From positions 1 to 49,915 of the forward strand of contig CAMNCL010000007.1 in NCBI GenBank assembly GCA_946534345.1: a DNA stretch of 49,915 nucleotides, in the 5' to 3' direction. The first letter of the stretch is position 1. Every line of letters starts with the position of its first letter. The notes under the pieces were generated by a model that was not told the DNA's origin, searched no databases, and was given only the letters and a program-made list of their open reading frames with translations. Position numbers and translations under genes: made by a program. Positions 33,084-41,759 of this stretch are shown piece by piece. This stretch comes from an uncultured Caryophanales bacterium (GTDB lineage: Bacteria > Bacillota_I > Bacilli_A > RF39 > UBA660).

Positions 33084-33112
33084 AAAGAAATATTATTAAT
33101 TAATATTTCTTT
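33084..33112 (-). terminator. Terminator after surface protein 1
   Basis: AAAGAAATATTA and TAATATTTCTTT are 12-bp perfect arms around TTAAT. The stop codon of the 33111 gene touches the stem. A T-run follows weakly on the minus strand. It lies directly after the variable-region-like tract. Confidence 0.75.
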
Positions 33113-34397
33113 ATCCAATTCGGAAAGCTGGCGAGACTCCGCGAGTATCATCAGCATGGTAGTTGATCCAATAACCAGCGATGGCCACACGGTAGAAAGC
33201 GAAAATAGTAGAGGAAAGGGCCGAGCGCAACCACCAATCAGAATTGGAACTATTTCTTTGCTTAATTGCTCCTGAGTAATTACTTGTTGTTACATTTTGT
33301 GAACTATAATAATCTAATTGTCTGGTATTATTATATGCTGTGTCATAGCCTGTATCACCTTCATATACTTCATGAGCTGATAGTAAGTATAGCTTATCCG
33401 TTGAGGTGAAGTTTGTCTCTCCACTTGTTGATCCATGTCCTGATACTACTGTTGTATTGATTATTCCGCTCTTTAATTCAGATGGCAATGCATTATATAT
33501 ATCACTATTGACATATGTCCTCATCTCACTTGCTGGCCATCCTCCTATATTTCCATTTCCTGGTGTTGTTACGCCTGAAGTATATGGATTCATTATATGT
33601 GTTGTAATGATATCTGAAAACTCTAAAACAAAGCCACATGCACTTTGGGAGAATCCTTCCTGAGAACATTCTGCTGGTGTACTCATATTGGCTATTCTTA
33701 GCGTATGCGTTCCTAAACTTCCCATATCAACTGTTTTTGTATCACCAACATTGTAGTTTTCAGTTTTACCTCTTTTTACAGCAGAAACTATTGTTGACCA
33801 ACTATCAGTAGAAAATGAAATTGGATTAACCACTGGAATTGCATCTTCATCTGCTTGTTTATATGTAACAGAAAAGCTTAAGTTTAGTGTTTGTTCAGCT
33901 CCAGGTAGATCACTAACACTTATATCTTTTTTATATTCTATTCTTACTTTATATGTTTCTGTAGTGCCGGCTTTTAATTCTTGATTTGCTTGTAATTCTG
34001 CTCCATCACTATAAGTTACACTATAATTTAAATAATTAGGCAAAGTTGTTATTTCTACATTGTTTAATTTAGATGATATTGTATCTATCATTCCATCTAT
34101 TGTTCCAGAATTTACTGCGTCTACTGTAAATTCATAATAATCTCCTGGTTTAGATAGAGTTATATTATAATTAACTGTTGTTTTATTTGTATCTATTGTT
34201 GCGGGTGTTGTGACATTTGTACCAGTCACACTACCTGTAGTCACTTGTACATTATTCCAATGGATATCCCATTTCGCATTATTTATTCCAGTTGTACCAG
34301 TAATATTTAAATTACTTTGTAATATGGCATATCCTACACTAATAAACAGTATTAGTAACAATAAAAGATATTTTGTCCTTCTCATTGTTCTTTTCAT
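33111..34397 (-). CDS. Surface protein with DGR-like variable lectin-type C-terminus (1)
   Basis: The 428-residue product has a basic N-terminus and signal/anchor helix (YLLLLLILFISVGYAIL), a beta-rich region (about 30-190, opening SNLNITGTTGINN), and a C-terminal domain (about 205-428) ending WWLRSAL...GVSPAFRIG, typical of C-type-lectin-fold domains of the DUF6273 kind. The last about 120 coding bases are near 52% GC (counted) against a very AT-rich gene, and are related to the same tract of the 40371 gene. This is the pattern of a diversity-generating retroelement target. A GTG at 34406 lies in the ribosome-binding site AGGTGAAG; ATG 34397 is the better start. Confidence 0.75.
   Translation of the reverse strand: MKRTMRRTKYLLLLLILFISVGYAILQSNLNITGTTGINNAKWDIHWNNVQVTTGSVTGTNVTTPATIDTNKTTVNYNITLSKPGDYYEFTVDAVNSGTIDGMIDTISSKLNNVEITTLPNYLNYSVTYSDGAELQANQELKAGTTETYKVRIEYKKDISVSDLPGAEQTLNLSFSVTYKQADEDAIPVVNPISFSTDSWSTIVSAVKRGKTENYNVGDTKTVDMGSLGTHTLRIANMSTPAECSQEGFSQSACGFVLEFSDIITTHIMNPYTSGVTTPGNGNIGGWPASEMRTYVNSDIYNALPSELKSGIINTTVVSGHGSTSGETNFTSTDKLYLLSAHEVYEGDTGYDTAYNNTRQLDYYSSQNVTTSNYSGAIKQRNSSNSDWWLRSALSSTIFAFYRVAIAGYWINYHADDTRGVSPAFRIG
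33117..33236 (-). repeat. DGR-like variable region 1
   Basis: 40 codons from TGGTGG to the shared 3' end TCGCCAGCTTTCCGAATTGG. About 62 of 120 bases are G or C. It aligns without gaps to 40377-40496 with 30 base differences, changing 17 of 40 residues; both ends are conserved. The differences sit in codons that mostly end in C or T, as expected for NNY codons. A cognate template repeat is not in the window. Confidence 0.55.
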
Positions 34398-34414
34398 ACT
34401 CTTCACCTAGCATA

Positions 34415-40370: not shown

Positions 40371-41693
40371 TTACCCAATTCGGAAAGCTGGCGATACTTC
40401 ACGAGTATAATCGGCATAGTTGCTGTTAGGGTTAGCAGCAGGGCCCACAAAATAGAAACCGGACGTAGAAGTGGAAAGAGCCGAACGCAACCACCAAACA
40501 GCATTTGAGCTATTATTTTGTTTGATTGCTCCTGAGTAACTTGATGTTGTTACTTCTTGAGATGCATAATAGTCCATTTGTCTTGTTTGAGATGACGCTG
40601 TATCATATGTTCCTGTATAGTTCCATACTTCTCTTCTTGATAATAAATATAGTTTATCTATTGTTGTATAATTCGTTGTATCCACACTTCCATGCCCTGA
40701 CACGACACGAGTATCTATTATGGCATTTCTTAGTACTTCTGGAAGAGAACTATAAATTCCAGTTGTTGAATAATCTATACTTTCATTTGCATAGGTTGTA
40801 CTATTTAAGAAGGCTCTCATATCGGAATATTCCCATCCACCTTTATTTCCTGTTCCATTTACGGTTGATCCATCTAAATTCGCATCTCCACTTGTATATG
40901 GATTCATTCTATGCGTCGTGATAATATCGGCAAACTCTAGCACAAATCCACATGCTGTTTGACTAAATCCTTCAGTACTACATTCTTCTGGTGTTGATTT
41001 GTTGGCTATTCTTAGTGTATGTGTTCCAAATGTTCCCATATCTACTGTTTTTGTATCTCCAACATTATAGTTACTTATATTTCCTGATCTTACATTATTT
41101 ATTATTGTTTCCCACGAATGACCATTAAATGAATGGTCAACTGCAACTGCATCATCTGTTGCCTGTCTATATGTTACTGTAAATTGAAGACTTAATGTTT
41201 GATTAGTTGCCGGTAACTGATTCAATTCTATATCTGTTCTGTATTCTATTCTTACTTTATACTTTTCTGTTGTATTATGTAATAATTGATGATTTGGTTC
41301 TAGTGCTACTCCATCAGAATATGTTACTGTATATTTTAAATAGTCTGGTAATGTTGTGATGGTTGCGCCGTTAAGTTTAGAATCTATTGTATCTATCATT
41401 GCATCTATTGTTCCACCATTAACGGCATCTACAGTAAATTCATAATAATCTCCTGGAGTATTTAATATTATTGAATAACTTACTGTAGTCTTACCTGTAT
41501 CTATTGTTGGTGTTGTTGCTTCTACTGAACCATTTGATACTTGTACATTATTCCAATGTACACCCCAGTTTGCACTATTTATATTAGCAGTTCCATTAAT
41601 ATTTAATTCTGTATTTAAATATGAGTATCCTATACCTAAGCCCAGTACTAATAGAATAAGTATTATTTTAATATTATCCTTATCTATTCTCAT
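40371..41693 (-). CDS. Surface protein with DGR-like variable lectin-type C-terminus (2)
   Basis: This 440-residue paralogue of the 33111 product has the same order: N-terminal membrane anchor (ILILLVLGLGIGYSYLN), beta-rich region opening ELNINGTANINSANWGVHWNNVQV, and a C-terminal lectin-type domain ending WWLRSAL...EVSPAFRIG. Conserved blocks between the two include NVGDTKTVDMG-GTHTLRIAN and GFVLEF-DIITTH-MNPYTSG. The final 120 coding bases are about 49% GC and match the related tract of gene 1. The start is ATG 41693 with AGGTGAA; GTG 41702 lies within that site. Likely a displayed binding protein; ligand unknown. Confidence 0.75.
   Translation of the reverse strand: MRIDKDNIKIILILLVLGLGIGYSYLNTELNINGTANINSANWGVHWNNVQVSNGSVEATTPTIDTGKTTVSYSIILNTPGDYYEFTVDAVNGGTIDAMIDTIDSKLNGATITTLPDYLKYTVTYSDGVALEPNHQLLHNTTEKYKVRIEYRTDIELNQLPATNQTLSLQFTVTYRQATDDAVAVDHSFNGHSWETIINNVRSGNISNYNVGDTKTVDMGTFGTHTLRIANKSTPEECSTEGFSQTACGFVLEFADIITTHRMNPYTSGDANLDGSTVNGTGNKGGWEYSDMRAFLNSTTYANESIDYSTTGIYSSLPEVLRNAIIDTRVVSGHGSVDTTNYTTIDKLYLLSRREVWNYTGTYDTASSQTRQMDYYASQEVTTSSYSGAIKQNNSSNAVWWLRSALSTSTSGFYFVGPAANPNSNYADYTREVSPAFRIG
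40377..40496 (-). repeat. DGR-like variable region 2
   Basis: 40 codons aligned gaplessly with 33117-33236, starting TGGTGG and ending TCGCCAGCTTTCCGAATTGG. It holds 59 G or C of 120. Residues differ mainly at codons 12-36 of the tract. Confidence 0.55.
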
Positions 41694-41759
41694 AATATTC
41701 ACCTAGTATAAGTTTACTATTATCAATATGTATTTAGTATAAACATGTTATTTACAAAT

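Follow-up and report, generated by a model that had tools for sequence, protein, structure and literature searches.

Results

The window, the whole stretch of 49,915 nucleotides analysed here, carries two genes with the features of targets of a diversity-generating retroelement (DGR), both on the minus strand. DGR-type target gene 1 (33111..34406), recognized from its ORF and translation, a Pfam DUF6273 match (E 1e-17) and an AlphaFold model, encodes a 431-aa surface protein, and DGR-type target gene 2 (40371..41702), recognized from its ORF and a Pfam match, encodes a 443-aa DUF6273 paralogue. In both proteins DUF6273 lies at the C-terminus. The last 120 coding bases of target gene 1 (33117-33236, minus strand), delimited by GC content and alignment, form a candidate variable region (VR), with a counterpart in target gene 2 (40377-40496, minus strand) that shows more non-adenine differences. 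An initial annotation had remarked on a GC-rich end in this otherwise AT-rich gene, and the values bear this out, with 51.7% GC in 33117-33236 vs 32.5% in the remainder of target gene 1; the corresponding values for target gene 2 are 49.2% in 40377-40496 vs 32.3%. Its alignment of the two tracts was reproduced as well, gapless with 30 base and 17 residue differences, and the 3´ end that they have in common is TCGCCAGCTTTCCGAAT. From 5´ to 3´, target gene 1 carries a conserved VR 5´ end (33219..33236; TGGTGGTTGCGCTCGGCC, WWLRSA), the variable core (33141..33218), where changed codons are NNY and correspond to AAY codons in the templates of relatives, and a conserved, IMH-like 3´ end (33115..33140; GGAGTCTCGCCAGCTTTCCGAATTGG), all on the minus strand.

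Just 3´ of the VR, an A+T-rich hairpin (33085..33112, minus strand) overlaps the stop codon of target gene 1. We considered this hairpin as a DGR recognition element, given that stems of at least 7 bp were found 3´ of 20 of 46 VR genes vs 4 of 27 control genes. Such stems are absent at cassette-adjacent targets, however, and we therefore rejected this role and read the hairpin as probably a transcription terminator. Another conserved hairpin, CTCCGAACGNAAGTGAGGAC, with a GNRA-type loop, was seen mostly 35-150 bases past the VR in cassette-adjacent targets and remnants (L122, L123, L125, L127, L060, L065, L069, L098 and L161); it is not present after the VRs of the window.

A DGR VR usually lies in a C-terminal ligand-binding domain with a C-type lectin fold. 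The AlphaFold model of target 1 (mean pLDDT 90) has a putative membrane helix at the N-terminus (residues 2-32), a beta-sandwich domain and DUF6273, with the VR in the last strands. The DUF6273 domain (residues 195-431) matched the Thomasclavelia ramosa IgA peptidase 9qa6 (residues 32-283; Z 17.8, 181 aligned, rmsd 2.6) and also phage DUF6273 proteins. Among the structure matches listed for the full-length model there was no classical C-type lectin, Mtd or TvpA, but since that list was filled by matches to the beta-sandwich domain, this is no argument against a C-type lectin fold. Published work assigns DUF6273 to this fold and locates the VR at the surface (PMC10743442), and the domain is known from DGR targets (PMC10743442, PMC11792537). 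As modelled, target 1 would be a membrane-anchored, outward-facing protein with a hypervariable binding tip.

The genome assembly to which the window belongs (G000; 1.29 Mb, 96.2% complete) encodes six full-length paralogues of the target gene. The end motif TCGCCAGCTTTCCGAAT occurs at four places in it (C7:33118, C7:40378, C8:15924 and C9:20742), all of them ends of DUF6273-type genes. In the genus, the motif was found in 15 of 39 genomes, vs none for a control read backwards, a recurrence well beyond chance, and the genus matches that we inspected were ends of WWLRSA...GVSPAFRI proteins. Two diverged target paralogues were noted, one at G000:C13 15926-17143 (L024), which has one in-frame TAG and may be a pseudogene, and one at C1:51631 without the typical end.

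Comparison of paralogues inside the window genome revealed how the VRs differ. Over their last 31 codons, the VRs of target gene 1 and of the gene at C9:20742 have 11 differences at the first codon position, 11 at the second and none at the third. All 13 of the 13 changed VR codons are NNY with an identical C or T as third base, vs 3 of 10 in a flank of 100 codons (p 5e-4), and 19 of the 100 flank codons differ. Third bases that are unchanged over 31 VR codons next to diverged flanks argue that a common template wrote both VRs well after the genes had diverged, and, judged from the sequences, a single AAY template would explain the changed codons of both. Third-base C/T differences had previously been taken not to fit a single template. 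This is correct for the two genes of the window, whose VRs have third-position differences in 10 of 31 codons, but it does not apply to the pair with C9:20742, and the puzzle was resolved by comparing this better pair. The fallback offered at the time, a second template or later drift, matches the look of the target gene 2 copy, which has 18 non-adenine differences of 57-59. With 15-18 such differences, the VRs of target gene 2 and of the C8 copy are older, or were made from other templates.

A template with AAY codons was inferred from the VRs of the genus and then searched for. This search led to contig C13 of genome G013, where an A-rich copy of the tract lies together with an accessory ORF and a reverse transcriptase (RT), and the G013 RT in turn led to eight close relatives within the bacterial family. 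Complete cassettes, in the order target, accessory gene, template (TR) and RT, were found at G097:C40, G412:C67 and G316:C47; the RT frames of G412 and G316 appear truncated C-terminally, leaving G097 as the cleanest cassette. Partial cassettes lie at contig ends in G186, G218 and G013. One relative, G097, also has targets in trans, on contigs C23 and C71.

The RTs of these cassettes carry GxEIAQ together with YMDD or FMDD. The usual DGR RT motif is (I/V/L)GxxxSQ. AQ is listed as a rare variant of it (PMC3521204). In a tree, the AQ-type RTs and the family's SQ-type DGR RTs formed one clade (support 100/99, to be read with care given long branches), separated from the group II and retron-like RTs that occur in the genus (support 96/95). 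A profile of the DGR RTs of the family had the solved DGR RT 8ub7 as its top match (E 1.5e-62). A single AQ-type RT as query ranked group II RTs above 8ub7, and for this reason the RT motif alone was not taken as proof. The RTs of the relatives' cassettes thus belong to the DGR clade, though their motif is GxEIAQ. The RT query was matched in 65 of 386 family genomes at E 1e-15, and other DGR-type cassettes are common in the family. Examples are L044 and L048 (G012, G007), L049 (G021) and L132-L151, whose RTs are of the SQ type and whose A-rich templates differ.

No Pfam family was found for the 180-residue accessory protein of the cassettes. Its model (pLDDT 81) matched phage Avd 4dwl (Z 11.7, 108 of 110 residues, rmsd 2.4) and the S23 protein 2gsc (Z 12.4). 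Designed helical bundles also reach Z 11.9, and since helical bundles score high in general, we call the accessory protein, on the basis of its predicted structure, Avd-like.

In every AQ-type cassette scanned, and in two of the SQ type, TR and RT are separated by the Rfam RT-2 RNA (RF03077), as at L181 10321-10514 (minus strand), L183 7637-7827 (minus strand), L128 1275-1469 (plus strand) and L047 2366-2575 (minus strand). Further loci are L123, L124, L125, L127, L129, L130 and L131. This RNA looks like a structured spacer in the 3´ part of the DGR template RNA, and a literature search found no paper stating this.

Comparing the tract among related assemblies, a check proposed at the outset, showed adenine-linked differences. 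In TR-VR pairs from the same genome among the relatives, 201 of 400 template adenines were changed vs 42 of 639 other bases (Fisher p 1.7e-59, a pooled value in which sites within one genome are not fully independent). The cleanest pairs were G412 (19/41 adenines vs 0/54 other bases), G097 (20/38 vs 0/57) and G316 (14/34 vs 0/61), which taken singly gave p 7e-8 to 2e-10. Between the G013 template and a G024 VR, 23 of 37 adenines and 0 of 58 other bases were changed. With TRs of relatives as the reference, the VR of the window likewise differs at adenines, with 24 of 38 adenines vs 9 of 57 other bases changed relative to the G097 TR (p 2.6e-6); even the best TR for this VR has 9/57 non-adenine mismatches, and among the TRs found there was none without such mismatches. 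Across 23 VRs of the genus, mean entropy was 1.59 bits at template-A columns, defined as A in at least 4 of 5 TRs, these from other genera, vs 0.46 at never-A columns (p 4e-13). The two kinds of repeat also differ at their 3´ ends. The VRs end in a fixed CCAGCTTTCCG, and the TRs of relatives have the related but different CCAGATTTCTG at the same position, a contrast that, as far as sequence can tell, corresponds to the expected IMH/IMH* difference.

The initial annotation had pointed to the rest of the genome as the place to look for an RT, an Avd gene and an A-rich copy of the tract, and none of the three was found there. RVT_1, single-protein and profile searches found no RT of any kind in the 96.2% complete assembly, a search with the inferred TR returned just the four VRs, a profile search found no accessory gene, and no cassette remnants lie beside the targets of the window. 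The parts of a complete DGR (RT, TR and Avd/accessory gene) are thus all missing from the assembly of the window genome. In the genus, with the target end in 15 of 39 genomes, an intact cassette of the AQ type was found in only one.

Remnants were detected in sister genomes. G007:C3 has a 34-residue accessory stub 3´ of a VR, G013:C2 has a truncated accessory gene, and in G024:C15 (L098, about 65640-65760) a TR is fused to a VR end without an RT or accessory gene. The sequence of this fusion suggests that it was probably left by recombination between the TR and a second VR, or that it is an assembly chimera. From these remnants we conclude that cassette loss does occur. A viral origin or phage supply was considered and rejected: viral contigs searched with VR and TR patterns, exact and degenerate, and with the RT protein yielded no such system, and the two matches to a short pattern (L120, L121) had no A-rich template.

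Discussion

The reading of the tract as a DGR VR, put forward from the window alone, has held up, with adenine-linked differences from relatives' templates, a 3´ end that is fixed and of the homing type, DUF6273 at the C-terminus, and complete cassettes of RT, Avd-like gene and TR next to similar target genes in the family. We regard it as very probable that the tract is the VR of a DGR target rewritten by a TR/RT/Avd-like cassette of the kind that the relatives have, and a DGR origin of the VR is close to certain. In the proposed mechanism, the cassette would make a template RNA in which the TR matches the tract except for AAY codons wherever the tract varies. Together with the Avd-like four-helix protein, the RT would then copy the TR, making mistakes at adenines, and the resulting cDNA would take the place of the VR through homing at its fixed 3´ end, the homing steps being modelled on what is expected of a DGR. 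In this way a membrane-anchored DUF6273 protein would come in many versions that differ at its exposed tip, where it probably binds a ligand. Diversification in the window genome, supplied in trans as first proposed, may be going on at present.

The last point has a serious competitor, which leaves DGR origin untouched and which we place somewhat short of an even chance: the cassette has been lost from the lineage, and the VRs are now fixed, drifting gene ends. The lack of a cassette in a 96% complete assembly, the decay at G007:C3, G013:C2 and G024:C15, and the many non-adenine differences in two of the four VRs of the window genome all fit such a relic, and Treponema denticola isolates lacking RT and TR retain DGR targets of this sort (PMC4891356). 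Against it stand the VRs of target gene 1 and C9, without a third-base difference in 31 codons while 19 of 100 flank codons differ. In addition, several relatives (G013, G218, G186, G040, G158) have their cassettes close to, or interrupted by, a contig end, a sign that assemblies tend to break there, so the missing cassette may be an assembly gap. We infer that a cassette served the window genome and is now unassembled, unbinned or recently lost. It is conceivable, though rather unlikely, that cassettes move into and out of the species of the genus and serve its targets in turn, the template of one species writing the VR of another while targets wait without an RT; the fit of the G013 template to a G024 VR and the single intact cassette in the genus would agree with this.

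Explanations that dispense with the retroelement fare far worse. Shuffling of the tip by gene conversion or recombination among paralogues would account for tract ends common to several of them, and may contribute to the drifted VR copies, but it copies existing tracts and cannot create new bases only at template adenines, which makes it very improbable as the source of the variation. Ordinary positive selection on a ligand-binding tip is the least credible of all, for although the residue changes cluster in one domain end, selection would not preserve the third base in 13 of 13 changed codons or put changes at the adenines of templates from other genera.

Systems of this kind are known: DGR targets with DUF6273 have been described before, as have orphan targets that lack an RT. 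As here, the targets in T. denticola (PMC4891356) are several and remote, and orphan VRs differ from the TRs of relatives mostly at adenines; unlike the DUF6273 proteins with an N-terminal helix described here, from different bacteria, those targets are mostly lipoproteins. The gut-phage DUF6273 targets (tentaclins, PMC10743442; Faecalibacterium prophages, PMC11792537) also carry the VR within DUF6273 (for the prophages, in the C-terminal end of the domain), but they are phage proteins, whereas the genes of the window sit among bacterial housekeeping genes on chromosomal contigs. The DGR of Bordetella phage BPP-1 (Mtd, Avd, bRT, TR) has in common with the present system adenine-specific TR/VR change, an IMH/IMH* 3´ end, a C-terminal VR and, judged from the predicted fold, perhaps the helper protein. 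It differs in that it belongs to a phage, its target adjoins the cassette and its RT has GxxxSQ, in contrast to the GxEIAQ of the relatives' RTs.

Surveys that require an RT on the same contig miss targets such as these, a limit acknowledged in PMC8144416. The Rfam RT-2 RNA, named only for its neighbour, becomes tied to DGR template transcripts. Within the genus, complete cassettes, remnants and orphan targets form a series in which one can study what becomes of targets after cassette loss. For the family, the findings add a host-encoded DGR lineage in small-genome bacteria, with hypervariable surface proteins scattered over the genome.
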